Shown here: positions 20,201-52,800 of the stretch, in pieces
How the letters are laid out: every line of letters begins with the position of its first letter
Numbering within the stretch: position 1 is the stretch's first letter
Origin: Apostichopus japonicus
Lineage: Eukaryota; Echinodermata; Holothuroidea; Aspidochirotida; Stichopodidae
Length of the DNA: 64,000 nucleotides
Reading direction: 5' to 3'
Assembly (NCBI RefSeq): GCF_037975245.1
Contig: NC_092568.1
Location: forward strand, 24,783,501 to 24,847,500
Notes under the pieces: generated by a model
The model's database searches: none
What the model saw: the letters and a program-made list of their open reading frames with translations, nothing else
Told to the model about the DNA's origin: nothing
Program-made: the position numbers and the translations under genes

Positions 20201-21583
20201 TATTAAAAATGAAAGCTTTCAAGCTATGTTTTAAATAGTTGCATACGTATGTATTATACATGTAGGTGGTTTTGTTTTTGTTAGTCTAGGCATTGACAAC
20301 TTCATACATATCGTACAGTACTGTGGTATTCTACTTCGCTTTCTCTCAGGTTTGCAAGTGGAGGTGCCAGGTTACGGGCTAGTCACTGTGGACATTGTAT
20401 ATGGCGGTGCCTTCTATGCTATCATAACAGACACAGAACTGGGTGTAAATGTAGTTGACACCCCCATTGAAGATATAGCTAATGCTGGCCAGGCAGTCAC
20501 ATCTGCTCTGCAGGGTTCCACCGTCATCGAACACCCGGACAGTGAGGATCTATCATTCCTGTACGGAACCATCATCACAGATGGCAAGGATGAATGGCAT
20601 GCAGAGAAACCAACGTCAAGTATTTGCATTTTCGCTGAGAAACAGGTGATTACAGTTTTACCATACATTTCCTTCATGAATCTGAACCAATTAGAGAAGG
20701 TCAATCCTATATATTGGTTTCTTGATGTTGCAGTAGAACAGGGACGGTGGAGCCAGGGGGAATGTGACCACACAGGTTTGTAAAGAAGCTAAAATATCAA
20801 TCGCATATGTCCAACACCCTTTTTGGTTGAAAAAAGGTACCCTTTTTTCTTTAGTTTTTGTGAAACTGATTTTGGCATTTTAGGAGTAACACAAGATTAT
20901 GTACTTAAAATTTGCCTTTGATTGAGAAACATTCAAGGACCATATTTTCTGGTATGTAATGCACAGATGGCCCATTTGAAGAGTAATTTGAATGAGGCTT
21001 TGAATTGCCATGAACAGAACAAATGGTGCTATAAATGTATACAATACATGCACATACACTGGTTTTTTACAATTTAGGAGGTTTTTCAACTTTTCATGCA
21101 TATAGGCATTCAGTAATGGTTAATTGGTAAAAAGATCTAGATGCAAATTTAGTTAATTAAGTAAATATTTTGCTTTTGGAGCTCTGTCCACAGGACTTTC
21201 ATGCATCAACGTACGTATTGTGTAATGCTGCATTCCATGGGTGATGGGGCTTTGACGTCTCTAACCAGGGGAGAAGTTATATTAATCTTGACTTGTTTTC
21301 TGCATTTTCAACACTTCAGGTCGACAGAAGTCCGTGCGGTTCTGGTACTACAGGTCGTGTTGCACTCCAGTATCATAAGGGACAGATTGGGCTCGGTCAA
21401 CAACGGATTTTCAAGAACAGCAAAACAATGTCGCAGTTTACCGCTACTGCCTTACGAGAAGCTACCCTCGGCAAATACAAAGGTGTCGTGGTTGAGGTCA
21501 AAGGTCATGGCTATTATACAGGTGAAGGCCTTTATATTAGGGAAGCCAAGGACGATCTTGGACGAGGATTTTTAATCAACTGA
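17219..21583 (+). CDS. Proline racemase family enzyme, L3HYPDH-like but with Cys/Cys active site
   Basis: Exons are 17219-17717, 20350-20645 and 21320-21583. AG/GT junctions and phases join into about 352 residues, close to the 354 of human trans-3-hydroxy-L-proline dehydratase. Landmarks are VEMHTGGEP, MFEPRGHHDMYG, FIHNEGYSTMCGHAVI (first catalytic Cys), CPCGLV, VDIVYGGAFYAI, HPDSEDLSFLYGT and DRSPCGSGTTGRVALQYHKG (second catalytic position). Overall the protein resembles animal L3HYPDH. That dehydratase has Thr at the second position (SPTGSG), whereas racemases and 4-hydroxyproline 2-epimerases of this fold use Cys, as here (TGC at 21335-21337). I therefore infer epimerase or racemase chemistry. 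No targeting signal is visible, so it is probably cytosolic. An in-frame ATG at 17180 is an alternative start. I leave the symbol empty because the activity may not be that of L3HYPDH. Confidence 0.92.
18400..18830. repeat. Intronic interspersed repeat with CTTTGACC motifs
   Basis: Phrases such as GATCTTTGACCTTGG, ACAAAGTTTGAAGAAAATC and a terminal acacacacaaacaca run resemble the repeats at 57.7-60.4 kb. A short (TA)n lies at 18605-18622. It sits in intron 1 of the proline-racemase-like gene. Confidence 0.4.
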
Positions 21584-24089: not shown

Positions 24090-24570
24090 TTATCCTTGTA
24101 GTCAGACCTAGACTTATATTCTTGTTGCCAGATTGATGCCCTTGCAGAGATAAAGTCAGACCTATATCCTTGTAGTCAGACTCATGACTCTGTAGTCAGA
24201 CTTATGTCTCTGTAGTCAGACTTATGTCTCTGTAGTCAGACTCATATCCTTTGTAGTCCAGATTAGATCCTTGTAGTCAGACTTATGTCTTTATAGTCAG
24301 ACCTGTCTTTGTAGTCAGACTTATGTCTTTGTAGTCAGACTTAAATCCTTGTAGTCAGATTTATGTCCTTGTAGTCAAGACTTATATCCTTGTAGTCAGA
24401 CTTATGTCTTTATAGTCAGACTTATGTCCTTGTAGTCAGGCTTATATCATCATAGTCAGACTTATGTCCTTGTAGTCAGAATTATGTCTTTGTAGTCCGA
24501 CTTATGTCTTTGTAGTCAGACATATCTTTGTAGTCAGACTTATATCTTTGTAGTCAGACTTATATCGACG
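24090..24570. repeat. Minisatellite, unit about 20-22 bp (TAGTCAGACTTATGTC type)
   Basis: More than twenty tandem copies of TTGTAGTCAGACTTATGTCT occur, with small length and base changes between units. It is intergenic and frames through it are chance. Confidence 0.92.
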
Positions 24571-26039
24571 TAAGTCAGTGCTGGATTCGACTTTTCTGGC
24601 AGGACGGGACATTTCAAGCACTCTATCACAGAAACTAAAATTCATCACAGGGCAAGTCTTTAATAGGGCAATACAAAGAAAAAATGATATGCCCGAAAGG
24701 ACTGGATCCAATTTTTCACTAAAAAATTCCTTTAACAATTTGCCACTTTTCAAAGTATCAAAACGAAGTCATTTTGTTTTTAAAATGCTCGATTGGTGAA
24801 AGAACTTGTACGGTTGGGTAAGTTTGATATTTTATTTTGTGCGGAACAAGCAGGGATCCGATGGGAGTTACTGTATGGTCAGATAGTGCAAAATATTCAC
24901 TGGTTTTAAAGTGGTATTACAGTTAAACATATTATGACGTGTGACTTTGAGTCGAGGTAAATAGTTCGGTCAGTGGTTGCTAGGCTTGTTCATGTATGAA
25001 ATACATATAACTCTGATCATGTGTAAAGTGTTATATTAACGGCTTTTCTAGTTGCAGAAGTCACGGTACTTGTTTCCAAAATTTTGTACTTTTCTGCATG
25101 GAAAATAAATTGGGTTTGTAATAACAACAATAATAATAATTAGATTTTCGAATGTTTTCTTGAATTTTAATGAATGTAATTGACAAACTAGCAGAAATAG
25201 TGATGTCATCATGACGATTGGCCTGCTACTGCTTTTTTTCGCCATTATTACATATATATTTAGATTCCGCGCCCCAAAACGCAAAAGAATAATGGCGCAC
25301 GGGTGTTGCAACGCATTACGCACCCTCACCCTCACCCCCTACTCCGTTTTGGAAATTCTGGTGCCGCCACTCTATGTCTTGCCACAATTTTATCAGGGGC
25401 AGTGACATATGTGACATTCCTTTGGTGGGGACACAGTGTTATTTCAAATCTTGCACTGAGCGTTCCGTACCACAAATTCCAGTATTTGAATGTTTCTCAA
25501 CAAAATGGCAATTTTGATTGCGCGGCTGTCTAGTTTATAGTTTCAATTCATGTGGGAGAACATTTAAGCTGGAAAACCTTGGATTTCGTCTGAAGGAAAA
25601 CTCCTCCTACACTTTAGCTGATTAGGTTTCGAACCCACGCATGGGTACCATGCACTTAGGTTCGACGAAAGGGGCGGGGAGGGGGTGCGCCAGTGGCATT
25701 TTTATACGACCAGAATTTAATATTCCAACGAAAACTCCAATTTTATAATAATATAATAATCCATACTCCTGGCTCAAACGTCATGGACGCTGAAACCACA
25801 CATTGAACAAACTGGGGCGGATCCAGGATTTCAAAAAGGAGGGTCTGTGGCCCTGAGGTCGTTGAAGCCGACTCCCTAGAGGGTGTGGGGGTACGAGGAA
25901 TGGTGCAGTCTGAATCATTTAGGCTTTAAATAACGATTGTTATAACACGATTGTGCTTAAATATTTTTTTTTTGGTAGAAGATTGGAAGCGTGTGGATGG
26001 GGGTGGGGATCGTAAACATTTCGACATAAAACAGTTGAA

Positions 26040-26330
26040 AATTTATGGTTGAACGCAACATTTATTAGATGAAACTGCAAAATGACGTGTCGAAATTTGG
26101 AGGTACAAAATACAACTTTTGACATAAAACATTCACATTTTCAGATCAAAGTTTGTGGTAAAACATCGAATTCTCGGCATAAAACCACGACATTTCGAAC
26201 TAAAACGTCGAAATATTATGAAGCAAACATCAACAATTTGAAACGAAACGTCGAAGTCTATAGATTAAATGAACGTCGAAATATCGAGATTAAACGTCAA
26301 ATTCTTTTGAAGTGAAACGTCGAGATTGCC
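26040..26330. repeat. Degenerate AACGTCGAAAT repeat, copy A
   Basis: Recurring (A)AACGTCGAA(A/G)T and ACATAAAAC phrases occur every 20-30 bases. The open frame through it (26082-26315) is identical in protein to the matching frame in copy B (31683-31916). That frame is a by-product of an A-rich repeat and does not look like a gene. Confidence 0.6.
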
Positions 26331-27609
26331 ACCGTAGCATTTACAAAAGTAAAATTCTTCGATGAAATGGTTCCACGGCTGGCTTTCAGCCCCTCATGTT
26401 TCGAAAGCTTATTCTATGTCAATGTCTTATATCAAGGAACCAGAATAACCCTTATTTTTTTGTATATATTTTTTTTATGAGCAGGAATGGCAAGCAGGAA
26501 ACGCTCAGTATGCAAATATCTTACAAACGAAACCGGTGGTGAATATGATGATAACAGAACGACAGAAATGGTATTTTTAGGTCTTACATTCATTTACCAT
26601 TGTGATTATTTCATAAAAAATAATGATCTGCTACAGCCATGGGCGACGATCCTGGGGGGGGGGGGGGGGTGGGTGGGGGATATATCCCAATGAAAATAGG
26701 TGGAGGGGATGTAATACACCATATCCCCCACCAAATGCCAGGGATAAGAATATTTTCATGCCTACATTTATGCATCATCGTGAATGTACGGCTCTTTTTT
26801 AGCTTCATTTCTCGCCTACCATAAACGCAGTGCGATCTTTTCAAATAAAGCGTCTTTATAAAGCAAGAATAGTTGCATTACTGTAGGCTTCATTGGCCGT
26901 TCACTCTGATCTTCTTATGGAAATAAACCCACTGGACATTGCCAAAGAATTTGTGTCTAATTGTCAAACACGCCGAGTCGTTTTTTGGACGAATGTAATG
27001 CTTATGATCAATAACGCCAATACACGTTTCACCTGGATGCCCTAGCAATCGGTACCTAGCGAGCAGTATGGATGCCAGGACAGAAGGGCGAAAGTGTTCG
27101 ACCCAACAGAATTTTATCGACTAACCTGGGATGTACTTTCAAAACAAGGTCCTTTTTACACTGAATGGTTTTCTCATATAATTATCTAATCATTAATTAA
27201 GTCCAATCGTGATCGCAGCTTAGCATGATGAGTAAACGCTTAAAACTTATAATATGGTATTTTGTCTTGCAATCTGACATGTAGCTGTAATGCAGAAATA
27301 ATTATTCTCAAACGTATGCTGTGGTCAGTGAAAAGTCGTATAGTGAATACCTAACATAGCATTACTATGCACCTAAGACACATTACACAGATATTTTCAA
27401 TAGGCAGGTTCAACCTCTGAACTCTATAGACCCCCAGGCGCAAAGCGAGATGTTTTCAGGCAGGCGGGTCAAAATCCTACTTCCAGGACTGTCATTTAAT
27501 GTCCCCATCCAACAAACGTGAGTACAGCTGTCCACTTGCAGAGATTGCAAACACTTTCCTCTCCTGGCAAATGGCAACGGAACCCGGGAATGGAGACTTA
27601 GCCTCTCCT

Positions 27610-27979
27610 CAGTGGCGTAGGAAGGTACTTTTGAGTGGGGGGGGGGCTGAAGACTGATGGCCGGCCTGGGGGAGGGGTCTAAGGGGAGGGGGTGTCCCCC
27701 TCCCCTTTGGAATTTTTTTCATTTCCAGGTAGCCTCAGATGCAATTTGGTGCAATATAGCACACTTCAACACCCACTCCCTTTTGTAAACTTAATTTTGT
27801 ATTTTCACCAGGCCTTAGATGCAATTTGATGCTCCAAATGAGATTTTTTTTCTCATTTGGAAATGAAAAAGGGGTTTTCTGACTTGCGAAGCGGGGGGGG
27901 GGGCGGAATGATACTTCCGCCCCTCCACATTTTTCACTGGGGGGCTGGCGCCCCCAGCCCCCCGGTTCCTACGCCCTTG
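27610..27979. mobile_element. CAGTGGCGTAGGAAGG-ended MITE, copy 1
   Basis: Ends are CAGTGGCGTAGGAAGG and CCTACGCCCTTG. The exact 8-bp duplication cctctcct lies at 27602-27609 and 27980-27987. It is 370 bp long and carries the C/G-rich module. It split a tRNA-derived SINE. It is close kin of 30022-30414. Confidence 0.88.
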
Positions 27980-28044
27980 CCTCTCCTATATTAATTTATT
28001 AGTTTTCATAGAGAAAGGAGTGGAGGGAAGTTTTGGTATCAGAT

Positions 28045-28119
28045 GTTGATACCGAAGTTTGAACCAGGGACCTCCAATTGTCACCGCAGGCGAGCACTCT
28101 ACCATCGTACTGCCCGGCC
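28045..28119 (-). repeat. tRNA-like head of a SINE
   Basis: Read on the minus strand it starts GGCCGGGCAGTACGATGG, with an A-box-like segment (TGGTAGAGTGCTCGCCT) and a B-box-like segment (GGTTCAAACTTC) at tRNA spacing. Its sequence tail runs on toward 27988 and resumes beyond the MITE at 27610-27979 (to about 27530). Paired acceptor-stem ends are not convincing, so I call a tRNA-derived SINE or tRNA pseudogene rather than a functional tRNA. Confidence 0.5.
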
Positions 28120-29341
28120 AAGTTAGCCTACATTTGCTAGGTCGTCGCGTTATTCCCTAAGTTCAACTCATCAGGTTTTCCCTAGCTAAAAAGCAAACGG
28201 AATGTAACTATGTGTAAATGTGTATTGCATGTGTATAGGCCTATAATAGCCTTGCATGAGGCTATTTCCTTCATCGAATAATATAAAAGAGCTCTCGAAC
28301 ATTCTAACGTAGCGCCTGAAACAAGATTGACAGTGGCAATTTTCCCAAAATAACACCCAGGAATTGAAAAAAAGTATTTTGGATCCTGATTATGAGATTT
28401 TTCGGGCATGATATCCACTATTTTAAAGTTGGGTATATGCCGCTTGAAAACCTCGGGAAGTGCCGTTTCCGGCCATCTAGAGGGTTTGTAAATCCCAAAA
28501 TTTTCTTGTACGCTTCGCGCCAACCTATGGTGGCGCTACGCTTAGATAGTCAACAAGGTCATATCCCCCACCCCCCCCCCACTCGGAAGTACGGATCGCC
28601 GCCCATGGCTACAGCTTGTGTTTTCCTTTACGTATTCAGAACCCGCATCCCGCTTATATTATGTATTAAATTATATGTGCAGGTTAACTTGATTAGCGTT
28701 GTAAAATTGAATTACCACATATAATTAATTAATTAATCACGACACGATATTTGATATGTTTATGACTGCCGCCTTTTTCCATAGATGACCACTGATACCC
28801 ACAGAAACGAAAACTGCGTCATAACTATATTTTATTTTCGTTTTATATGCATGCTCTTTCTGTTGCAATGTAATTTCTTTCCTTTGGTAAAATTTGAGTA
28901 AAAATAATTACCCCCTTCCCACTCACAATACTATTTGGTTTATCAATTTACCAAAATTTCATACACCCTTCGCCAGGACGACATGGTATCTTAGCCGACC
29001 ACCCCCCTGCCCCACCCCACCCCTTTACCAATGACAAAATGATCCAGGTATGATAAAGTTATTATACTATTGCGAATAGTGTCGAGCACTCACAACGTGT
29101 AAATTACATAATAGGCAATTATTGCACACAAACTAACAATGTATGGAATCACACATGGCATTATATGAAAACAGTGGAAATGGTTAACGAATAGCGTAAG
29201 TACTAACAGCTACTTCTCAAGGTAATCTGACTCTAGTGAAACCAAATTACTTGTTTACTCAACGAGACGTTGTTACAAAAAATTTTAAATATGCTTAGCG
29301 TAAGTCATGATCCGGAAAGTATAGCTGAGACTGATGTTGTT

Positions 29342-29990
29342 TTAGGTGATTGTTGTTATACGTGACTTTTTGCAAGGCAAATGTAGGTTTCTCGACTCGG
29401 GACATTGTATCTTACGCCTCCACTTGGTTAATACCAATTTGAATCCTTCCCTAAACTGACGATTGAAACGCGCATAAATAAAAGGATTTAACGCTGAGTT
29501 GACCAAAGAGATATATTCGCAACAAGTTTGTACGACTATCAGTGATCCCGACGTGTAATCAATGTTATTCTCATAGAAAATTTTGAAACTTGTTGGTAAC
29601 CAGCAAATCCCAAATGCACCAACAACAATCGCCATGGTGATTAGGCCACGCATGCGTGCTTGAGCTTCCCTAAGAGCGTGGACTTGATTGGTCAGTTTAC
29701 GACGTTTCTTAATTTGCAAGAATGCGATACGCAACATGAACGAATAGAGCGTCATCAATGCAAGGAAGTATCCTGGAATGAAACAGGCTACCATAATCAA
29801 AGTTAGATCGAGCCCGCTGTTATAGGCATCGCTGGAATTGCATACCCACACGTCTTCTCCTGATGTCGGTATGTACAACGGGAGCAACGCGAAACCAACG
29901 TTATAGATCCAGATGATAGCGATGAGCAGAGTCATCTTACGTGATGTCACCAGATATGGATATCTGAGGGGATATATCAACGACAGACAT
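29342..29990 (-). CDS. Class A GPCR, duplicated 3' exon 2A (TM4-TM7 and tail)
   Basis: The exon opens after a CAG acceptor with the bases that complete the Arg of the DR(C) motif, then CLSLIYPLRYPYLVTSRK, and ends at a stop (29342-29344). TM4 to TM7 follow in order, including the class A marks CWLP in TM6 and NPFIY in TM7, then the FNRQFREGF helix-8 region. It is collinear with exon 2B, about 95% identical at the DNA level by eye, with 19 amino acid differences and no frameshift or stop. It has no first exon of its own: the only TM1-3 exon is at 42307-42716. It is either an alternative terminal exon of that gene or a duplicate on its way to becoming a pseudogene. A rhodopsin-family ligand cannot be named. 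Confidence 0.8.
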
Positions 29991-30021
29991 CTGAAAATGA
30001 CACAGAAACAATAATTGTCAA

Positions 30022-30414
30022 CAGTGGCGTAGGAAGGTACTTTTGAGTGGGGGGGCTGAAGACTTATGGCCGGCCTGGGGGAGGGCTCTAAGGGGAGGGG
30101 GTGTCCCCCTCCCCTTTGGAATTTTTTTGGAATTTCCAGGTGGCCTCAGATGCAATTTGGTGCAATATAGCACACTTCAACCCACCCACCCCATTTTTTA
30201 TATAATTTTGCATTTTCACCTGGCCTTAGATGCAATTTGGTGCTCCAAATGAGATTTTTTTCTCATTTGGAAATGAAAAAGGGGTTTTCTGACTTGCGAA
30301 GCGGGGGGGGGGGGGCGGAATGATACTTCCGCCCCTCCATATTTTTCACTGCGGGGGGGGGGGGGGGGCTGGCGCCCCCCAGCCCCCCCCCCCCCTCCGG
30401 TTCATACGCCCTTG
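30022..30414. mobile_element. CAGTGGCGTAGGAAGG-ended MITE, copy 2
   Basis: Ends are CAGTGGCGTAGGAAGG and CATACGCCCTTG. The exact 8-bp duplication attgtcaa lies at 30014-30021 and 30415-30422. It sits about 30 bases upstream of the acceptor of GPCR exon 2A on the minus strand. The equivalent place in copy B is uninterrupted, so it postdates the duplication. Confidence 0.9.
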
Positions 30415-30940
30415 ATTGTCAATGGATGTCTCGATATCTATATTTGTTGCTAGAGTGCGCTGTGTATCTCGTTTAAGATTCTGAATAATTTCTTTTTGTG
30501 CATGTTGTTATTATACTTTGCCGGTGCGACGGGAAGTGATTTTGTTTATGGTTGTTGCAGGTCTGCACTATAAGTATAGGCCAGATATATTTAGTAAGTT
30601 ATATAATGAATCAGTCCGAAATTTCCACTAATATTGATATTCGAGTCTTTTAAGTTTTTTCTTCTCCTTGTAACTAATTCTAATTTCATTTCCAAATAGT
30701 TCATGAAAGAAAACATTATCTCTTTCTCTTAAGTTGACTTAAATATGCCATCTACAATAAAACCAACGGAATTTCCTTGTAACCAATGAAATGAGGAAGA
30801 AGAACTCGTTTTTTAAACCACGCTGACCATTAACGGAATCTTGAGGTTTCAAGTCCGTTTTACCATGGAGTTATTAATATGGAGATATTAACATGGTGTT
30901 ATTAACATGTAGCTATTAACGAAACGTTAATATCTCCATG

Positions 30941-31310
30941 CAGTGGACGAGCGTCCATACAGTCAGGGGGGCGGATCCCCCCCCCCCCCCCCTGACGGAC
31001 TCAAATGGACTGCTGGCGCCCTTTTCAGCTTTTTACCACTTTTTACTTATTCGCGATTATTTAATTTTTTATTGCGCTCTCATCTACCTATTGACATTTG
31101 TCACATTTTTGACACCTATATATTTTTCGTTTATCTGCAAATTAGCCATGCAGGAAAGGGTCATTTCCGGCGATCTAGGAAGTATCTTAACTCAAAAAAA
31201 TTTTGTACGCTCCGCGCCAAGCTGTGGTGGCGCTCCGCTTTTAGATAGTGTCGAAAGCGCCCCTACAGACCATTCTCGCCCCCCCCCCTTGACCAATACC
31301 CCTAGCTCCG
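30941..31310. mobile_element. 370-bp CAGTGG-ended MITE, truncated by the duplication junction
   Basis: The left flank tctccatg (30933-30940) and body match the element at 34846-35215, but the terminal CCACTG is missing because copy B begins at 31314. It contains the hairpin core at 31151-31249. Confidence 0.85.
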
Positions 31311-31639
31311 GGTAGAATTTAATATTCCAACGAAAACTCCAATTTTATAATAATATAATAATCCATACTCCTGGCTCAAACGTCATGGACGCTGAAACCA
31401 CACGTTGAACAAACTGGGGCGGATCCAGGATTTCAAAAAGGAGGGTCTGTGGCCCTGAGGTCGTTGAAGCCGACTCCCTATGGGTGTGGGGGTACGAGGA
31501 ATGGTGCAGTCTGAAACATTTAGGCTTTAAATAACGATTGTTATAACACGATTGTGCTTAACTATTTTCTTTTGGGGTAGAAGATTGAAAGCGTGTGGAT
31601 GGGGTGGGGATCGTAAACATTTCGACATAAAACAGTTGA

Positions 31640-31930
31640 AAATTTATGGTTGAACGCAACATTTATTAGATGAAACTGCAAAATGACGTGTCGAAATTTT
31701 GAGGTACAAAATACAACTTTTGACATAAAACATTCACATTTTCAGATCAAAGTTTGTGGTAAAACATCGAATTCTCGGCATAAAACCACGACATTTCGAA
31801 CTAAAACGTCGAAATATTATGAAGCAAACATCAACAATTTGAAACGAAACGTCGAAGTCTATAGATTAAATGAACGTCGAAATATCGAGATTAAACGTCA
31901 AATTCTTTTGAAATGAAACGTCGAGATTGC
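31640..31930. repeat. Degenerate AACGTCGAAAT repeat, copy B
   Basis: This is the duplicate of 26040-26330 with only scattered base changes, carried by the segmental duplication. Confidence 0.6.
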
Positions 31931-33658
31931 CACCGTAGCATTTACAGAAGTAAAATTCTTCGATGAAATGGTTCCACGGCCGGCTTTCAGCCCCTCACGT
32001 TTTGAAAGCTTATTCTATGTCAATGTCTTATATCAAGGAACCAGAATAACCTTTATTTTTTCTTCTTCTTTATTTTTGAGCGGGAATGGCAAGCAGTAAA
32101 CGCTCAGTGTGCAAATATCTTACATACAAACGAAACCGGAGGTGAATATAATGATAACAGAACGACAGAAATTGTATTTTTAGGCCCTACATTCATTTAC
32201 CATTATGATTACTTTATAATCGTACTTCATTGTACATTTACTCATGCAGTACCAATGCCTTCCCGGCCTACCATCATTCTATACCCGACATTATGGGTGA
32301 ATCATCACCTTCGCGTTACATCGTGTCCCCCCCCCCCCAATAACTCACGGTTCCCCAAAACACCATAATTTCCCTAACAACCCGCAATATTTTCCCGACG
32401 ACCGTCGCGTTGGCTCGAAGGGGAAAAATTGTTTTTTAAGGAGTGCTACACAATCTACGAACCTCCAAGTACCATCCCGATAATCCGGGCATCATTTCTA
32501 CCCGACACTGCCTGGATGAGACATTGCCCTTGTTAGAAAGGTGGTTACCCCAACATACATTAAACCAACGTTAAAATCATGATCTGCTACAGCTTGTGTT
32601 TTCCTTTACGTATTCAGAACCCGCGTCCCGCTTATATTATGTATTAAATTATATGTGCAGGTTAACTTGATTAGCGTTGTAAAATTGAATTACCACATAT
32701 AATTAATTAATTAATCACGACACGATATTTGATATGTTTATGACGGCCGCCTGTTTCCATAGATGACCACTGATACCCACAGAAACGAACACTGCGTCAT
32801 AACTATATTTTATTTTCGTTTTATATGCATGCTCTTTCTGTTGCAATGTAATTTCTTTCCTTTGGTAAAATTTAAGTAAAAATAATTTACTTTACTTAAA
32901 AATAAAATACTTAAAATAATACTTAAAATTAATACTTAAAAATAATTTACTTACTATTTTTTTTTTACTTCATGTTGTTTGTTTGTCAATTTCGATACGT
33001 CGTCATTATTTGATTACTTCGGCCACTGTGCTTAGTATGCGATCCGCGGGCCGTACAGTTAGTCTTACACTATCACTCGCCTTTCCATAAACATTTGTAC
33101 AGGCCTACATCGTTTATCTATCACCGTACCGCACGGTTGTCAAATCAACGTGAGAATGGTAGGCTATACAATTAAAATCGGAGGGGGGGGGGGGTTGGGG
33201 TCCTCCAGAATAAAATCAAGAGCGATCGACCCACCCTCCCCCCTTCCCACTCACAATACTATTTGGTTTATCAATTTACCAAAATTTCATACACTCCTTC
33301 GCCAAGACGACATGGTATCTTAGCCGACCACCCCCTGCCCCAACCCACCCCTTTACCCATAACAAAATGATCCAGGTATGATAAAGTTATACTATAGCGA
33401 AATAGCGTTGAGCACTCACAACGTGTAATTACATAATAGGCAACTATTGCACACAAACTAACAATGTATGGAATCACACTTGGCATTATACGAAAACAGT
33501 GGAAATGGTTAATAATAGCGTAACAGAGACTTCTCAATGTAATCTGACTCAAATGAAACCAAATTACTTGTTTACTCAACGAGACGTTGTTACAACAAAT
33601 TTTAAATATGCTTAGCGCGAGTCATGATCCGGAAAGTATAGCTGAGACTGATGTTGTT

Positions 33659-34307
33659 TTAGGTGATTGTTGTTATACGTGACTTTTTGCTAGTCAGTTG
33701 TAGGTTTTTCGACTCGGGCCTTTGTATCCTACACCTCCACTTGGTTAATACCAATTTGAATCCTTCCCTAAACTGACGATTGAAACGCGCATAAATAAAA
33801 GGGTTTAACGCTGAGTTGACCAAAGAGATATATTCGCAACAAGTTTGTACGACTATCAGTGATCCCGACGTGTACTCAATGTAATTCTCATAGAAAATTT
33901 TGAAACTTGTTGGTAACCAGCAAATCCCAAATGCACCAACAACAATCGCCATGGTGATTAGGCCACGCATGCGTGCTTGAGCTTCCCTAAGAGCGTGGAC
34001 CTGATTGGTCAGTTTACGACGTTTCTTAATTTGCAAGAATGCGATACGCAACATGCACGAATAGAGTGTCATCATAGCAAGGAAGTATCCTGGTATGAAA
34101 CAGGCTACTATTATCAACGTTAGATCGACCCCGCTGTTATAGGCATCGCTTGAACTGCATACCCACACGTCTTCTTCAGATGTCGGTATGTACAACGGGA
34201 GCAACGCGAAACCAACGTTATAGATCCAGATGAGAGCGATGAGCAGAATCATCTTACGTGATGTCACCAGATATGGATATCTGAGTGGAAACATCAACGA
34301 CAGACAT
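33659..34307 (-). CDS. Class A GPCR, duplicated 3' exon 2B (TM4-TM7 and tail)
   Basis: This is the 3' exon nearer to the shared first exon (42307-42716). The acceptor (TTTTTCAG) joins in phase: AG from exon 1 plus A gives the Arg codon of DR, followed by CLSLMFPLRYPYLVTSRK. It encodes TM4, a second extracellular loop with DVWVC (a Cys that could pair with the TM3 Cys), TM5, a long basic third loop (KKRRKL), TM6 with CWLP, TM7 with NPFIY, and FNRQFREGF in helix 8. It stops at 33659-33661. With exon 1 it gives about 353 residues, a normal class A length. Broad resemblance is to amine- or adenosine-like receptors; the ligand is unknown. AATAAA on the minus strand at 32809-32814 is a candidate poly(A) signal. 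Confidence 0.87.
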
Positions 34308-34845
34308 CTGAAAAAGAAACAATAATTGTCAATGGATGTCTCGATATCTATATTTGTTGCTAGAGTGCGCTGTGTGTCTCGTTTAAGATTCTGAATAATT
34401 TCTTTTGTGCATGTTGTTACTATACTTTGCCGGTGCGACGGGCAGAGATTTTGTTTATGGTTGTTGCAGGTCTGCACTATCAGTATAGGCCAGATATATT
34501 TAGTAAGTTATATAATGAATCAGTCCTAAATTTCCACTAATGATGATATATTCGAGTCTTCAAGTTTTTTCTTCTCCTTGTAACTAATTCTAATTTCATT
34601 TCCAAATAGTTCATGAAAGAAACATTATCTCTTTCTCTTAAGTTGACTTAAATATGCCATCTACAATAAAACCAACGGAATTTCCTTGTAACCAATGAAA
34701 TGAAGCAGAAGAATTCGTGTAACCGCGCTGACCATTAACGGAATCTTGAGGTTCCAAGTCCGTTGTACCATGGAGTTATTAATATGGAGCTATTAACATG
34801 GTGTTATTAACATGTAGCTATTAACGAAACGTTAATATCTCCATG

Positions 34846-35215
34846 CAGTGGACGAGCGTCCATACAGTCAGGGGGCGGATCCCCCCCCCCCCCCTGACGG
34901 ACTCAAATGGACTGCTGGCGCCCTTTTCAGCTTTTTACCACTTTTTACTTCTTCGCGATTATTTAATTTTTTATTGCGCTCTCATCTACCTATTGACATT
35001 TGTCACTTTTTTGACACCTATTTATTTTTCGTTTATCTGCAAATTAGCCAGGAAAGGGTCATTTCCGGCGATCTAGCAAGTATCTTTACTCAAAAAATGT
35101 CTGTACGCTCCGCGCCAACCTGTGGTGGCGCTCCGCTTTTAGATAGTGTCGAAAGCGCCCCTACAGACCATTCTCGCCCCCCCCCCCTTGACCAATACCC
35201 CTAGCTCCGCCACTG
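34846..35215. mobile_element. 370-bp CAGTGG-ended MITE, complete copy in copy B
   Basis: Ends are CAGTGGACGAGCGTCC and TAGCTCCGCCACTG. The exact 8-bp duplication tctccatg lies at 34838-34845 and 35216-35223. It contains the shared hairpin core at 35050-35147. The truncated sister at 30941-31310 has the same left duplication. It was present before the segmental duplication. Confidence 0.88.
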
Positions 35216-35223
35216 TCTCCATG

Positions 35224-37667
35224 ATGGATACTTGCTCCATAGTTGCACTTTCATTTCAAATTTAAAATCTTATAGTCGTCACATTGGGCTGGTATGGATA
35301 ACGGAACATATTCTGAGTGTGGTCGCCCAGTTTAAACTTGAAGTAAAATGTGTACAAAGATGAAGAAAGTTTCATAATACATGCAGTTCTTTTTCTCTTT
35401 TTTTTAATACGGAAGAAAACCCCGATTATCGAATGAACTTATATAGAATAGGCCTATATGCATGCAAATGAAACACTAACACACAAACAATCATAAATGT
35501 GTGTTGTTTTTTTAATATATATTTATATACTAAATAAGAGCATTTTCTAAAATGTAGATAAGGGAAGAAAATAATTCATATCTCCACTCTAAGAAATTAT
35601 TAGGAATTACTACCCAATAGTTGCTGCAATTGTCCTCAACAATAAAGTAGGAAAAACATAGCACTGTTCTTAGCATTTTGGTATTCTCATTTGGGTTTAA
35701 TACTTTCTTCACTTAACAATTGAGTAATATGTTTCTTCAATTATTGGGTAAAAATATAAAGTTGATCGAGGCGTATAGCACTTCCATTTTTAGAACTTTG
35801 TACGGTAGCGAATATTGTGCATCATGCTTGAGAATTGTATTATATACGGTTACCTTACAATCTGAGATCAAGAGAAAAGAATAACACTTTTCTTGTGGCT
35901 TATAAATATATTTTATTGAATTTCTTTAAAATGTAGCATTTCTCAGGAAGATAGTTAATTAAAACACAATCTCTTTGCAAGATAGTTGACACAACTCTCC
36001 ACTGGCCTTTGGTCTAACCTCCCCCCCCCCCCCCCCGCTCCCCAACCCTTTCCTCGCTCTTTTCAAAGAATATGACAAAGGTTGTTGCTCTAAATCTCCC
36101 CACCTCCTCCTTTCCTCTTGAAAAGACTTGAGATTAGGCTGCATCATCAGTCGCCTCTGGGTATTCACAATATTCTGTAAATGAAAACAAAATAAGAATA
36201 ACTTTTTAATAATTATTTTTGCCACTATGACTTCAGAATACATCATTATCGCCGAAGGAAAGACAATTCTTCAATGTCTATTTTATTATGTCACGCGAGA
36301 ATAAAATTCACGGTATAATTCGACATCAATCATTTCGCATCAGTGAAGTCTTTAGCTGCCGACTCGGTCGCCATGCAGTTCATCCGCGCCAATGTCGAGA
36401 TGGCCTAATAAGGCAAGGACAACCTAAAGTAAGAATTAAGTGTAAATTTAAGTTGTAATTTTACATGTATATATATATATGTCTTTATGGTTGTAAAAAT
36501 CCAACAGAGCCAAATCTTGTCAATTTCTCCTCCGTGTCTTGATTCCTCTGGATCTAACTTGTGACAGTTTTCTTGAGAAAAATCTAGAAAAATAAAAAAA
36601 CATGAAATTAATGAAATGTGACTTGTCAATATTCATGCCATTACCAAAGACACTTTGATTGAATAATAGTCAAAGTAGAACTAATCTTACAATTTTGGTA
36701 ATGGATAACAAAAGAGGGGAAGGGTCATGCTGCAAGCTGGACCAGAGAACTTGAGAGTCAGGTGGGACCCCGGTGACAAGTTGTCATCAGGCCCTTCTGG
36801 CATATATCCCATGTGTCCCACTGCTTTAATTTCCTGCTTACCACTCCCCCTTTCTTTCCGGACCAGCCCAGACAGGGGCAGCACATGATGGACTTAGACT
36901 TAGCCCACCTCATAGGCTATAAGAACTAAGCTATATTCTAACCATGGCATATGTAGGCCTATGCCCAGGCCAGGCCTTGTCATGCATGCCGTGGACAGTT
37001 AGGCTGACCTATATAACGTAGTGACCGGCAGCATTTGGTCGTTTTGACGAGTCCTAAAGTACGCATTTTACAGGAATTAAACCTACCTTCAAATTTTTTT
37101 TTTAAGCTTCTGTATCCCCAAATCCTTCTGCAAGGTATAAAGAAGATATCGACTAGGCCTAAAGTCGTGATGTTCGGATCTTTAATTCTTCGTCTAATGA
37201 GGCCAAATCGTCGTCTTGACAGCCTGTGTAACCTATAATTATGTTATTATTCCCTAACAATGTAGCAACAGTCTTTAATAAATACATGTAGTTCGCTACA
37301 TATTTGTTTTACGATGTTTCATCTTGGGAACTGAGCGTAATGTACCAATAATCTACCATAATCTACCAAACTATAAGTTTGCTTTTTTAGAGTGAATATA
37401 ATACAGGGCCCCGAAATGGGGGGGGGGGGGCTCACAATAATTCCACAGCAGTAACCTCCAAGCGGTAATTTCAACACCAGTACTATTACCCACCCCACCC
37501 CAGCCACCACCATATCCCACTCAAACCTATGTCGGGTCCATGGAATAGAGTTAAATATACAAACCGGAGGTATACATGTGTATGCTTCGTGAAAATCTAG
37601 ACCTGTATCTTTGTCGGTAAGGTATAAGGGGGGAATGTCTCCAAACTGAGGGTTGTTATTTGTATTT

Positions 37668-37670
<3 letters not shown>
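35224..37670. other. GPCR intron sequence, nothing recognised
   Basis: This is AT-rich sequence within the 8-kb intron between GPCR exons 1 and 2B. Short frames at 35959-36246 and 36687-36884 lack recognisable domains. A C-run lies at 36020-36037. Confidence 0.4.

Positions 37671-37712
<42 letters not shown>
37671..37712. repeat. (TA)n microsatellite
   Basis: About 21 uninterrupted TA units, inside the GPCR intron. Confidence 0.9.
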
Positions 37713-37714
<2 letters not shown>

Positions 37715-38149
37715 ATCACCGTTGGGCTGTAAAGGCTGCGAGCTCGCTAGACGTATCATAGAGAAATGATCGTTCTTATAGCCGTTATTAGCCAACTGAT
37801 CCGAACTAAAAGCAGAAGTAATTGCAGTGATCCTTCAAACTACTTATTTTAATGGCGAAGATGTCTCTCATAAAAAGGATTGCTTAACTAAGTATGGGAC
37901 AATCTTAGTGATGATCGTACATGTAATCAACAATCAAAGTCATTACATGTCACGTGTGCATTAAAGGAACGGGGAAGCCTCAGTTGGTGAGAGGCCATTA
38001 TCCTCTCAACGCCGGGATACTCGTACTTCTGATTATGTATAGATGTTTATTTATAGGATGATTTTAATTTATATACATTATAATAGGCCTAAACATAAAT
38101 TAACAATTGAAGTCTCAATACGCATTCAGTAAGCCAATTATACCGTACA

Positions 38150-38650
38150 TAAACGGATACCCTTATTATGTTTCATACTAACGCCCTTAGAATATTATAC
38201 TTAGGTATATCGGCCCTTAGTATACCCTTTAGGATATGCCATTAGTATAATCGGTTTATACGTATATGCAGGGAGTTGTTCCATAACAACTCCCTGGTAT
38301 ATGTACCCTACAGTTTGTACCGTGTTTACCGTGTGTGTAAATGTGTATCATGTCAACCTATGCCCTTAGTATACCCTTTCATAGGTGTATGCCCTTAGTA
38401 AACCATATATAGGCTACCTATATATACGCATATACAAATATAAGCATTTATATGCCCATAATAAACCCTTTCATAGGTATATGCCCTTAGTAAACCGTAC
38501 GTACGTATATGTGCCCTATGGTTTATACCGTATACCAAATGTGTATATATGTATGCATATGCATATGCGTATGCATATGTAAGCCTATACCCTTAGTATC
38601 CCCTTTCATCGGTATAGGCCCTTAGTTATATACGTATATGTACCCTATAA
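38150..38650. repeat. Degenerate minisatellite with GCCCTTAGTA motif
   Basis: Variants of TATGCCCTTAGTA, usually with CCCTTTCATAGGTATA, recur about every 50-60 bases. A smaller patch of the same wording reappears at 40865-40945. It is AT-rich, intronic and non-coding. Confidence 0.6.
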
Positions 38651-38713
38651 TTTATACTTGACCTCTCCCACCCCCTCCCCCTTGTTAGGCTATCTACGCC
38701 TGGACGACCCCTA

Positions 38714-38841
<128 letters not shown>

Positions 38842-39584
38842 GGACGCCAGTTCATATTCTGTGGGCGCAGTCTTATGTCCAATGCAGGACGGCGTTGAAC
38901 GCGTAATCGCATATGTGAACATAATAATGGCATAACGGAGAAAGAGTGTCTCGCCTTACTATTTGCGGTAAAACATTTCGACTATTATTTTACGTAATAC
39001 ATCGTTCACTGCTATTGTCGCTGAACGGTACTATTCCAGACAATGACGTCTCGTATACAAAGAAATATTACTCACTCATAACGACCACTTCATCAATAAC
39101 AATGATCTTTACCATATTTGAATTAGGAATAAGAGCACATCACGTCAGATATCTAAACAGATACCGTAGTTATCCCCAATGCGCTCGTTGCCGTTGTATT
39201 ACGGGAGATACACCAATGGTTCACCTGTAACTCCTGGAGGTCACCTATAGAATATATAAAACTCTAGATTAAGTACGCCTCCGTTACCACTGACATCGCG
39301 AGAGCGCTGACGTCAGAATTGGGAAGGGGGGGGTGTATCCCATGTGCCCAACAACGCAAGCGACCACAAAAGATAGGGCTCAAATACAGCCAACGCCGAT
39401 ACAAAAGTGAACCATGGCAACGTGTGAGTATAGATATCTAAGATCTCTTACCCGGCTGTTGATAATGTCATAAATTTGTCATTGTGTCTGTAGATTACTA
39501 ACGTGGGTATCATTCAATCGAGGACTAGTGATAGATGGCAATGCATTTATACTTACTCTGATTACTTAAACATTAATACCGATG

Positions 39585-40258
39585 GGGTACCCCCATGGAA
39601 CCGTCCTGGAATCCCTGCAGCTCTTTCTTAGTTATGTCTATACGATACTCGTACAGAATGTGCCCGACATCTCTACTCGTCATTTTGCAGATGACACTAA
39701 TGTTTTCCTGTTTGGTCACGATTGTTCACTCCATCATAACTCGTAATAGGAATTTATTTAAAGTAACGTATCAGCACAATCAGCAACGCAAATTACTTAA
39801 CAATTCTTAACTACTATTGTTACAATCTATGGCAGTCTCTGTCTCAATATGTTAAATCTATTAAGTCTGTAAAGTCGTTTCAATGTAAAATCAAGGATGA
39901 TCTTGTCAATCAGTACATGTAAGCATGTTGACTTTTAACTTTGTTCTTTAAATACCACACTCTACTTCTTTTATCTTCTTCAAAGTCTTTGCCATCCTTC
40001 TTGCCTCTTTTCATCCTCTCTTCTCTCTTTCTGTTCTGTCTTGTTTCTTCTTCGCCTTTCTCTACGTCTTTCTTTTTCCCCTATGAATTTAATTTGAGTG
40101 TTTCATTGTTTGATATTTCTACTTGGTCACTTGCTGAGATAACAGCCTTGTTGCTTTTCTAGTGTCCTTCATATAAGTTAACCTTCCTACTGTAATGTTA
40201 TATCGTAATTATCTTGTACAAACTTATGAGAAATAAATTTGAAATTGAAATTGAAAAC
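39585..40258 (+). pseudogene. LINE 3' remnant with reverse transcriptase fragment
   Basis: Translation near 39597-39730 gives GTVLESLQLFLSYVY followed by FADDTNVFLF, the reverse transcriptase palm signature (compare FADD) of non-LTR elements, with frame breaks. About 90 bases on is a typical LINE C-terminal stretch (KSFQCKIKDDLVNQYM, then a stop at 39918). The 3' end is AAATAAATTTG followed by a short (GAAATT)n-like tail (40236-40256), as in CR1/L2-type LINEs. It is 5'-truncated and dead. Confidence 0.65.
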
Positions 40259-40539
40259 TTGAAATATATAGTTGTAAAGAATTAGTCAAGAGAATTCACA
40301 ATGAGATATATACCCACGGACAAAAAGAGTAAAAACGTAAACATTATATATACAACTTATTTTAAGTTTAATATGTGACGATCGATTCTCGGCAGTTAGA
40401 AGCCATGACGAATATATAAATGTGATCACACGGCAGTAAGAGTAATCGTCATTTTCTCGTATTGTGAACATGTTCTTTGTATTATTCTAGTGTTTATTAT
40501 TATAAACTTTCCTCTTTGTGTATTTGACTGTTATCGTCA

Positions 40540-40750
40540 CCCCCCCCCCCCCCGAGCATATTTTTTGTATTTTTTATGATATCGCTAGTCATTTCAAAAT
40601 AGAAAATACTTAGATGCAACTTACAAGGCCTGGGAAGTGCTTTTTCCAGCGATCTTGGAGCATTATCGGTCAATTTTTGGGGGTACGCTTCGCGCCAACT
40701 TATATGGTGGCGCTACGCTTTGATACTTTGCCTACAGGCTTCGCCCCTCC
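40540..40750 (+). mobile_element. Partial element with hairpin core
   Basis: It matches the body of 43373-44000 from the GAGCATATTTTTTG phrase through the hairpin core (40629-40726) to GCTTCGCCCCTCC. Its left end is a long C-run and no matching duplication was found, so the ends are uncertain. Confidence 0.5.
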
Positions 40751-41599
40751 CATTACTTTAATCTCCGGTTTTAGCTTCCGTTATCATTGTATGAGTAGAG
40801 TGCCTCGCACTACATCCCCGTATTCCACATATATCCCTTACCGTATATGTCGTATATATGTGTATATTATGTAAACATATACCCTTGTTATACCATCGTG
40901 TGGGTATATCGGCCTTAGGATACCGTTCTATATATGCATATACATTCCATTAATCTCTCATTATCTACGGGCTCTGTTATACCAAGACTCGTCATTGCGA
41001 TACATACTCGCCGTTTCCATATATTTTTCAAAACATTCACCTACGGCATGGTATTTCATATAACGGTTAACCGTATAATTTTTGGAAACGGTGACGAAAG
41101 GTCCCTCACCCCCCCCCCCTTTTACATTCAAACATACTAAATAATAGGATTCATGTTATTTTTTGTATACTTGAGAGTATAGGCCTACCAGTACTATTCG
41201 CCCTTTTTCTCGCAGCAGTGGTCACAGGGATTTTACTATGCGATACAAATATAATTGGGAAAAGTCCGGCGGGTCAATCAAACTTAGTCGGCCAGTGCTG
41301 AATCGATAGACCGAGGCTGGCCGGCAGGATCCACACACTCTTCCATCTCCTTGCCCCACCTCTCAAATTTATCTTTGATGTTATAATCGGCTGGATCAGA
41401 TGTTGGTTAATCTACCTCACACATATAGATACCATTCAAATCAGGTTATAGTTTGCCAGATGCATGTGACACATCCTTTTGATATTTTACTCCCAACGTT
41501 TATTTGTATATAACAGTGCAATGCCGCAGCCCGATATATAACTTGACAAGTTACATAACAAAACTTATTAAATGTCTCCTTACGTTGTTGGTCCCCCAC

Positions 41600-41984
41600 G
41601 AGTAGTGGAGCTAGGGGTATTGGTCAGGAGGGGCGGGAATGGTCTGTAGGGGCGCTTTCGACACTATCTAAGCGGAGCGCCACCACTGGTTGGCGCGTAG
41701 CGTAGAGAAAATTTTTGAGTAAAGATACTTCCTAGATCGCCGGAAATGACCTTTTCCGGGCCTGGCTAATTTGCAGATAAACGAAGAATAAATAGGTGTC
41801 ATCGCCAAATTACACCAACAAAATGTGACAAATGTCAATAAGTAGATGAGAGCGCAATAAAAAAGTCAATAGTCGCGAATAAGTGAAAAGTGGTAAAGAG
41901 CTGAAAAGGGCGCCAGCAGTCCATTTGAGTCCGTCAGGGGGGGGGGCGCATCCGCCCCCTGATTGTATGGACGCTTCGCCACTG
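41600..41984. mobile_element. 385-bp MITE, reverse-oriented relative of 34846-35215
   Basis: Read in reverse it begins CAGTGGCGAAGCGTCC and ends in a mutated terminus (GAGTAGTGGAGCT on the plus strand, three changes from CAGTGGCGGAGCT). The exact 8-bp duplication tcccccac lies at 41592-41599 and 41985-41992. It carries the hairpin core at about 41662-41763, minus strand. It lies in the GPCR intron about 320 bases from exon 1. Confidence 0.82.
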
Positions 41985-42306
41985 TCCCCCACCCCCAAAC
42001 CAATTCCGAATTTCTCGTTAGGGGCCTGCAGCCTAAGCTTCACAACCACCATTACCCTATCGGACATAATGAGCTGACAGCTTTCTAAGCATGTGTCTTA
42101 AAAATAACTATATAGTCGTCATGACAACAACAAAAAAAGAGAAGAAAAAGAAAGAAAAAAGAGAAAGCGATTTTGTAAGGCTCGATTATAACAAAAATAC
42201 TTAAGTATATTCTTACAATGTCGCCTCCTGAGACAACCTTTATTTAGACTCTTTGGAACATTTTTGCTTCAGTTTGTTTGTGACCCAATCACTTCGCTTA
42301 ACTTAC

Positions 42307-42716
42307 CTGTCGATTCCAATAAATAAAAGGTGATACACTGAAGATCCACAAAAGACGAGACCGGGTAAGAAAAAGATGAACCGTGTCGACGCGTAGCATG
42401 AGAATTGGCTGATGACAAGACGGCCAAGGACGTTGGCTGGTAAACCGACTATACCGGTTAAAAGATCTGTCACTGAGAGGCTAAGAAGTAGATAGTTCCT
42501 AACTGTGCGAATTTCTTTCTTGTAAATAAAAGCAAAGATAACTAAGAGGTTACCGAGTACGATAGAAATCCACAATGGCAGGTAGATGATGACGTAAGCA
42601 GCGGTGATCAATGGAGAGAAAGCTAACCGAACAGTATTCGTAGGATAATCGAGACTGGTATTACTATTCGAATTACTCGAATATATTGAAACCAGTGATG
42701 ATGATGATGGTTCCAT
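42307..42716 (-). CDS. Class A GPCR, first coding exon (N-terminus, TM1-TM3)
   Basis: It starts at ATG 42716-42714. A short Ser/Asn-rich N-terminus has an NTS glycosylation sequon at residue 19. TM1 (about residues 37-64) has LGN, TM2 (about 73-97) has LSVTDLL with the conserved Asp, and TM3 (about 110-135) ends at IGIDR. The donor (CGACAG/GTAAGT) splits the Arg codon of the DRY-equivalent motif, an intron position seen in many animal class A receptors. The completed motif with either 3' exon is DRC rather than DRY. It is the only TM1-3 exon found; two alternative TM4-7 exons lie 8.0 and 12.3 kb downstream. Confidence 0.87.
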
Positions 42717-49879: not shown

Positions 49880-52800
49880 TTAGTAGATCTCGATGACAGA
49901 CGCTCGGCTTTTGCCGACACCGACCCATCGAACTGTAAGAGGGAACAAGTTTGATATTAAATATGCAAATGTTGGGTGACAGCTGGTGAGTAAATACTTT
50001 TTTTTGTGATGAACAATGTATTTACAGTAACATTTCTAATAGTGAGAGACCAAAGAGATGTGTGTAAGTCAGAAACAGTCAGAGAAGAAAAGACACTTAG
50101 ATCATAGATTGTCATATATTTGGTGAAACCTGTAGGGTTAGAGTAAAGCAATCTGTTGCTTTTTGTTATACAACTTACAAAAACCTCATCACATTTTCGG
50201 CAAGCCCTACTCGAGGCGTCTGAACAATGAATGTTCTGTTCCAGCACTATGTACCCATCTGTAGTATTTTCACTGTTATTATCTAAACTGCTACTGTATT
50301 ATTTCTATATAGCGCCATCTATTGGAAGTTTTCGTTAATGAGTCACGAGTTAAATCTGCTGTCTCTGTTCTCATTGAAATCTCTATAATCATGTGTGGAG
50401 GAGATACATCCCTATCCTTGGTCCTCAATCGACAGCTGTATTAGTCGTCAACCTTTCACATAGGGACGGTCTGCAGTCCCGACTACACTCATCCATCAGT
50501 GACCCTACAGGTCACACAGTGTACAACATGGGAAGGCTTACATATATCTTGACTACTCTCAAGAAAGAAATGGACACTCACTTGGTACTCCTACAAGTTC
50601 CTCTACTCTCTTGATATATCTTTGTGCGTTTGGCGGTAGATCCTTGAACTTTCTCACTCCTGAAATATCGGACTTCCATCCCGGTAACGTCTCATACTCT
50701 ACTTCAACATCCTTGAGGACTTTTTGACTCGCTGGAAACCGAAAAGACAATGGAAAGGATAATGGAAAAGGACAATGGATAAGGACAATGGATAAGGACA
50801 ATGGAAAAGGACAATAGAAAAGGACAATGGTATAGACTGTTATCAAAAACCGATTGATGCCAGGCAGTATATAAACTGGTTCACAAACTCTACAAATTTT
50901 GTATAAATTATGTAAATAGTGTACAAATTATGTATAAAGGTATGTACAATAATCTTTGATACAGAATAACATACTTTGCCAAGTTTAACTGGCAACTAAC
51001 ATGATTTGGAACAAAGGCCATAATTTCAAGTGTCTTTTTCTGTTGTTTTCTGTTACTGCTTGTAATACAATCAAGTATAGACCAAAACCTGCGACTGCAT
51101 CAATGCTGAAAAACTTCATATCTTAAGAGCTCAAACAATTAAAGTACATAACATACTTTTAGAGGATACTTAAGTTTTTTGTACCACAAGAATTCACCAC
51201 TGTAAAAACTCCTATAGAAAGTTGCTTAATACTGTAGCATATCTACAGATGGCAATGAACTTCCCATAAACATTTAACTTAGCATTAAGTAAATGAGCAC
51301 ATCCCCAACGAATTTGCAATGAGCTTTTAACAAACACACTCGCTGCTAGAGTACCAAAACACTGTAAACCAACAACAATTTTAGTCTATCACTGACAACG
51401 TTTTACCTGGAAATGATTCCAAAGCTTTTCCATCGTGTTTGTATGCAACTCCAATCTTGATCTCCTCAAAGCCATCTAATATATCTAGCTTGGTTACCGC
51501 TAACCTAAACGTTATGAAAATAAACAGAAGAGAGATCTCAATGTAATTCAAATGACATTCAAATCCTCAAAAAGAGTTTGACAAAAAACATACATGTCAA
51601 TGTTCAGAATGTCACACAATGTTACAATAATTTTTCCAGGTAATTTCACAATTTCACCAATAGCAGAATCAAAATCTGTCTTCAGAAATATCTTTTCAAT
51701 CAAGTTTACAAAAGACATACTACTTAAACATGAATTGTCTCAGGGACATCTTACAATCACTGTTGACAACATTCCACAAAGAACAATTACTTTACGTAAT
51801 GTAACAGATTAGGGCTTTGCTCCATGTGAAAAAATCTGAATTTGCCAATGAATATATATCATAAATTATGACTTTGGAAAAAGGGGGGGGCAGTAACTTA
51901 ATTATCTCAGGGGCCCGATCTGGCTCGCAAATTCCCCTGACCACAAACAACAATCAAGTCACATACAGTGAACAAGAGACATTGCAAAGATTGATACACA
52001 CTTTGGCATGTTACAGAACTGTTCAGCAATCTGACGACCAATGATACATGAGGGAAGCAAAGCCAACACTATACCTATTATACTTTATTTTGTTTTTTCA
52101 ATATTACACATCTTTTCAAGATCTGTTTCATTCATCACATCTGTGTTCTACACATTCCATTCAGTTTCAAGGTACAAGAGGAAACAAGCCTTAAAGAATT
52201 CAGCTAGATTCTATGTAATATTACATATTCTTTGTCTTCTTTTTACTACTTACCAATAATCTGTGATCTTAAAACCTAAGCAAAAATTAAAATGTATTCA
52301 GTAAACATGCTACACTTATGCACTTTGTAAGGACGTCTGAAATAACTCTCTCTCACTTACGCTGTGAAACCGTTGATCATTTGTGTGTACTTCAACAGGA
52401 CGACATCTAACCAGCCACATCTTCGTTTCCTCTTTGTTGTTACTCCAAACTCTTGACCTTTGACCTGCAGTGTTTCACCAGTTCCCTATAAAGGCAGGAA
52501 ATAAATTAACATGTCACACTTTGTTCTACTATGATATCTCTGCTAGTGGGTCTTGACACAACCAAATTACTGACATCATTCCATTTAACCCAGGCTGTTA
52601 ATAAATGATCAACACCTTTTACATATGTAGTATTAACTGGTGTTATGCATAAAAGTACAGATTCTCTAAGCCACATCTGAAGACGCCAAACCTGGTGGAA
52701 GCAGATCAAATTTGTCCTTGTAGCAATTCCATTTTTGTCTTACTTATTTTTTGTTATCTCCATTTTTCTTTTGATCTTTCCTTCCTTTTAATTATCAATT

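Follow-up and report, generated by a model that had tools for sequence, protein, structure and literature searches.

The 64,000-nt window analysed here, from the holothurian Apostichopus japonicus (assembly GCF_037975245.1, contig NC_092568.1, positions 24,783,501 to 24,847,500), contains a minus-strand gene for a predicted G-protein-coupled receptor (GPCR) in which one first exon faces two homologous last exons, designated 2B and 2A (Table 1). Exon 1 encodes the start codon, an N-terminus with one N-glycosylation sequon, transmembrane helices (TM) 1 to 3 and the first two bases of the Arg codon of a DR motif, which is split by a phase-2 donor (CAG/GTAAGT). An earlier sequence-only reading had proposed a single TM1-3 exon with its donor inside this codon and two acceptors that restore the same frame into complete TM4-7 exons. 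We read the first exon at 42716-42307 as proposed, and the acceptors at 34307 and 29990 each give AG/A (Arg) in the same phase and lead into frames that are open to their stops. The proposed architecture of one first exon and two terminal exons therefore holds.

Table 1. Features of the receptor gene and of the duplicated region (window coordinates).
Feature	Coordinates	Strand	Description
Exon 1	42307..42716	-	410 nt (136 codons + 2 nt); TM1-TM3 half; ends GACAG/GTAAGT
Exon 2B, proximal terminal	33659..34307	-	Last base of the Arg codon, TM4-TM7, C-tail; stop at 33659
Exon 2A, distal terminal	29342..29990	-	Intact TM4-TM7 copy; stop at 29342
Candidate polyadenylation signal after 2B	32809..32814	-	Nearest AATAAA, in duplicated block; motif only
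Candidate polyadenylation signal after 2A	28831..28836	-	Nearest AATAAA, homologous to that of 2B; motif only
Duplication unit B	31314..35209	.	Exon 2B, upstream intron and downstream flank; blastn self-comparison, alignment
Duplication unit A	25712..31310	.	Holds exon 2A; adjoins unit B at ~31311; blastn self-comparison, alignment
hAT-like non-autonomous element	30022..30414	-	In unit A; 393-bp insert; its end next to exon 2A lies 31 nt upstream of that exon

The two predicted proteins, exon 1 joined to 2B or to 2A, are 352 residues each and belong to the rhodopsin-like (class A) GPCRs, with the Pfam 7tm_1 model matched in order by both halves (exon 1, model positions 1-83, E 1.9e-12; 2B, 88-260; 2A, 86-260; all above the cut-off). 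Both products contain DRC and NPFIYA, which we take to be the D/ERY-like and NPxxY motifs. The nearest PDB sequences among the best 60 of 481 were the histamine H2 (E ~7e-29), 5-HT1A (~7e-27), trace-amine (TAAR, ~5e-26) and adenosine A2a (~3e-24) receptors. At what we take to be position 3.32, where we assume aminergic receptors to carry a ligand-binding Asp, a hand count back from the DR motif, made without alignment, places Gly119. Because the aminergic Asp is absent by this count, we provisionally leave the receptor as an orphan class A GPCR.

When the AG dinucleotides from 42300 to 29342 were scored against an approximate acceptor consensus, the acceptor of 2B ranked 6th and that of 2A 8th of 719. 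AGs with better scores exist, and therefore these ranks show that both predicted acceptors are plausible and nothing more. The candidate AATAAA noted downstream of each exon was found after both 2B (at 32814) and 2A (at 28836), and the two are homologous; other AATAAA and variant motifs surround both.

Tandem duplication of the terminal exon

A blastn comparison of positions 24001-46000 with themselves showed that a head-to-tail tandem duplication of ~3.9 kb took the last exon of the gene and left the first exon. The matching blocks (25712-26616/31314-32219, 28608-28909/32586-32887, 28911-30021/33239-34332 and 30415-31310/34325-35209) are 93.7-98.3% identical across the units. We rejected chance similarity of 2A and 2B because the exons sit within this duplication and have flanks in common. 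Unit A is 1.7 kb longer than unit B, and some of its stretches are without a clean counterpart in B. The window contains no N, and the junction between the units is gapless. In three cleanly aligned blocks, the flanks carry 88 substitutions over 2201 aligned bases (4.0%) as well as 19 indels; these rates leave out 28608-28909/32586-32887, which is 98.3% identical but out of register in the alignment, and the rest of 26617-28607 versus 32220-32585, where there is no clean counterpart. The duplication is recent and, as partial gene duplications go, of an ordinary type. The paralogs favour neither A nor B as the original unit: of positions 162 and 279, at both of which three close paralogs agree, one supports 2A and the other 2B.

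Unit A also carries an insert upstream of exon 2A, which we take to be a hAT-like element from the features of its terminus and its target length. An 8-bp target duplication, TTGACAAT, flanks the insert and occurs once in unit B, where the site is empty; the element was inserted after the duplication. A relative lies at 27610-27944, and a genome search with 30022-30406 as query yielded another 39 copies, complete or almost so, that are 91-96% identical (40 scored of 2938 candidates). The downstream target copy occupies the positions 24-31 nt upstream of exon 2A and retains TTGAC, the A of which lies 28 nt from the exon, so that this motif is a plausible putative branch site for 2A.

The receptor gene is convergent with a proline racemase-family gene on the plus strand, which has two exons (17132-17761 and 20235-20780) matching consecutive parts of the PF05544 profile (E 1e-47 and 2e-17). 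Upstream of the receptor gene, on the same strand, lies the C-terminal part of an adenylosuccinate synthetase (50562-50927; PF00709 350-402 of 416, E 2e-15). Tandem arrays occupy 13958-15067 (period 139 bp), 24154-24566 (period 20 bp) and 58306-59297 (period 399 bp).

Relatives of the receptor gene in the genome

The 672 Mb of the genome (35 contigs) were searched with both kinds of exon, scoring 150 of 233 candidates for exon 1 and 150 of 253 for exon 2. Among those scored, no other copy of exon 1 exceeded 54% identity, the next best being 52-54% identical, and no relative of exon 2 besides 2A and 2B exceeded 45%. A separate first exon for 2A, which would have undone the one-to-two arrangement, is thus rejected in this assembly for the 150 of 233 candidates scored; with no further first exon listed beyond 54% identity, 2A could be read in this assembly from the shared exon 1 alone.

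Nine two-exon paralogs were read, six on C8 (at 2.18, 2.22, 2.23, 18.24, 18.26 and 18.35 Mb) and one each on C20, C2 and C21. All nine pair one exon 1 with one exon 2, and in all nine the donor breaks the Arg codon of a DR-like motif; a matching phase-2 acceptor was visible in eight, the stretch read at 18.24 Mb having ended short of it. The window gene is the only one-to-two case among the ten genes examined, and because the nine paralogs are one-to-one, its arrangement looks derived. A cluster of three two-exon genes at 2.17-2.24 Mb on C8 shares the interruption of the DR Arg codon with the window gene (exon 1 ~46-50% and exon 2 ~42-45% identical) but, in contrast to it, has one first exon per last exon. 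Two of these three paralogs (exon 2 synonymous divergence, dS, 0.066) look like a whole-gene tandem duplicate, with a dS similar to that of the window duplication.

Other relatives have different structures. At C12:18.02-18.05 Mb and C3:29.46-29.76 Mb, single open frames of ~350-380 codons (28-41% identity) stand beside split relatives, a pattern that suggests that family members have lost or gained the intron. Also among the matches listed are copies interrupted by stops, and a few places, such as C21:1.23 Mb and C12:18.05 Mb, that look split and are known as search matches alone. A TM4-7-like copy at C21:2491009-2491554 (28% identity) has two in-frame TAA codons, lacks any listed exon 1 match in its vicinity, and is possibly a decayed orphan last exon.

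Divergence and possible use of exon 2A

Exons 2A and 2B are identical at 196 of 215 residues. The sequence-only reading had counted about 19 differences in 216 residues from about 32 base changes; the 19 replacements stand, whereas the denominator is 215 and we counted 31 base changes in the 648 nt after the Arg codon (4.8%). As that reading had stated, 2A has no stop and no frameshift relative to 2B; the alignment is without a gap, the frames are open and the AG acceptor is present. We therefore rejected the possibility that 2A is already decayed, no lesion having been found. Placed by general GPCR topology, the replacements fall approximately in the second intracellular loop (2), TM4 (2), the second extracellular loop (ECL2; 2), TM5 (4), the third extracellular loop (2) and the C-tail (7). 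The stretch from the third intracellular loop (ICL3) to TM6, residues 221 to 279, is free of them (longest-gap P 0.043 for residues and 0.055 for all substitutions, in a test chosen after the pattern had been seen). Exon 2A gains a sequon, NSS at N188, directly after Cys187 of ECL2, and loses Cys221; in its C-tail, cysteines at 333 and 343 replace that at 329. If translated, the 2A product would probably still be a receptor.

The nonsynonymous divergence (dN) between 2A and 2B by the method of Nei and Gojobori (NG86) was 0.041 and dS was 0.080 (dN/dS, omega, 0.52; 20 nonsynonymous and 11 synonymous changes). The earlier caution that the divergence is close to neutral is borne out: the dN of 4.1% equals the 4.0% of the noncoding flanks, and the synonymous value is somewhat above the flanks (P 0.05). 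A model with one neutral copy and the other at omega 0.1-0.3 predicts 20.3-21.4 nonsynonymous changes among the 31, and the observed ratio of 20:11 agrees fully with a lack of constraint on one copy. Omega 1 in both copies is only weakly disfavoured (P 0.07). Because 20:11 fits one-neutral and two-relaxed models alike, we rejected dN/dS as a decisive test.

We favour, with a probability of about 0.58, a recent partial gene duplication in which the distal 2A is a spare terminal exon, possibly used alternatively. The assembly shows that the ~3.9-kb head-to-tail duplication took in the last exon of this two-exon orphan class A GPCR gene but left out its first exon, and that one TM1-3 exon is now followed in the same phase by a proximal complete 2B and a distal complete 2A. 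By default, exon 1 would join 2B and the transcript would end at the polyadenylation site of 2B; reaching 2A would require skipping both 2B and its 3′ end, and joining it would alter TM4, ECL2, TM5 and the C-tail of the receptor. Exon 2A would then most likely be a young spare terminal exon, rarely or never used and under little constraint. In favour of this reading are the homologous blocks on either side of the exons and the adjoining units, the exon searches and the one-to-one paralogs described above, and the 20:11 ratio with a nonsynonymous rate equal to that of the flanks. A control tandem pair of the same family with similar dS (g2.18/g2.22) also favours it, with an omega of 0.23 in exon 2 (8 nonsynonymous, 10 synonymous changes). 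Several observations weigh against this reading. Exon 2A is without stop or indel, and its acceptor is plausible despite the adjoining element. With 2B as stand-in ancestor and equal rates assumed, as in all of these neutrality tests, a neutral 2A would have escaped both indels and stops with a joint P of 0.036 (all 19 flank indels) or 0.086 (the 13 outside homopolymers), which is weak evidence. Only 2 of the 19 replacements fall among the 61 of 215 positions where 2A or 2B has the residue common to the three close paralogs (hypergeometric P 0.054 for random placement), and adding this factor to the absence of indels and stops gave a joint P of 0.021 by simulation. However, in simulations with 2A neutral and 2B fixed, two or fewer changes at conserved positions occurred half the time (0.50), and for this reason we dropped this count as a main argument on 2A. 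The difference in omega between the control pair and 2A/2B is not significant (P 0.23), and exon 1 of the control pair has an omega of 0.61 (4 nonsynonymous, 2 synonymous changes).

A rival reading is that 2A and 2B are functional alternatives, with a regulated choice giving two receptors that have TM1-3 in common but differ in TM4, ECL2, TM5 and the C-tail and hence in ligand or signalling preference. The intactness and common phase of the two exons and their plausible acceptors would fit such a choice, as would the lack of replacements from ICL3 to TM6, the gained N188 sequon, the rearranged C-tail cysteines and the preservation of the branch-like TTGAC by the target duplication of the element. 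Against it, dN matches the neutral divergence of the flanks, and 2B is proximal and complete and has its own candidate polyadenylation signal. We consider a regulated choice possible but rather unlikely. Also doubtful is the more specific proposal of a class A GPCR that exchanges its whole TM4-TM7 half by means of young duplicated terminal exons under one promoter, with isoforms that differ in an ECL2 glycosylation site and in C-tail cysteines; this would be a natural exchange of receptor halves observed at an early stage. A further possibility is that the assembler set two diverged haplotypes of one exon side by side. Highly heterozygous marine invertebrates can show ~4% divergence with insertions, and the divergence seen here would be within that range. 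The form also matches the false exon gains described in a published account, which names half depth and gaps as hallmarks and gaps as usual (PMC9516828), whereas the junction of units A and B is gapless in a window without any N. In addition, the units differ by 1.7 kb in length, and 20 nonsynonymous changes of 31 would be improbable for alleles at omega 0.1-0.2 (P 1e-5 to 0.006). A false duplication thus appears improbable.

The window gene has the structure of tandem alternative terminal exons, with homologous adjacent terminal exons in the same phase and one common upstream exon. Gustatory receptors fall outside the class A GPCRs, and neither pip nor PGRP-LC is a GPCR. It is well established that exons duplicated in tandem can be chosen in a mutually exclusive manner or as alternative termini, and pip and PGRP-LC resemble the window gene in that their 3′ terminal exons are arranged in tandem and are homologous or variable; theirs are chosen one per transcript and their splicing is described, whereas that of the window gene is predicted (PMC9013439). 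The Drosophila Gr39a gene likewise joins tandemly duplicated large exons of a seven-transmembrane chemosensory receptor gene to shared exons. Its duplicated exons were gained, diverged and lost, with relaxed selection on duplicates (PMC2204066). In contrast to the window gene, where the 3′ terminal half is duplicated and splicing is predicted, the large exons of Gr39a join three shared small exons and their splicing is known (PMC2204066). The Drosophila octopamine receptor OAMB is a GPCR with alternative last exons; by comparison, the swapped exon of the window gene begins before TM4 (PMC2650798). Among the matches listed in searches of the open literature, echinoderm GPCRs included, none was a GPCR whose TM4-7 terminal exons lie in tandem, which is no proof of absence.

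With the intron in the DR motif, the TM4-7 half becomes a unit of which further copies can arise through one small tandem duplication that leaves the promoter uncopied. The value of the finding lies mainly in the case that transcripts show 2A in use. If 2A is unused, the locus would exemplify a spare exon that has yet to decay; if it is used, the locus would show an early, natural step in the diversification of receptors through the choice of terminal exon, within a family whose nine paralogs examined are one-to-one.

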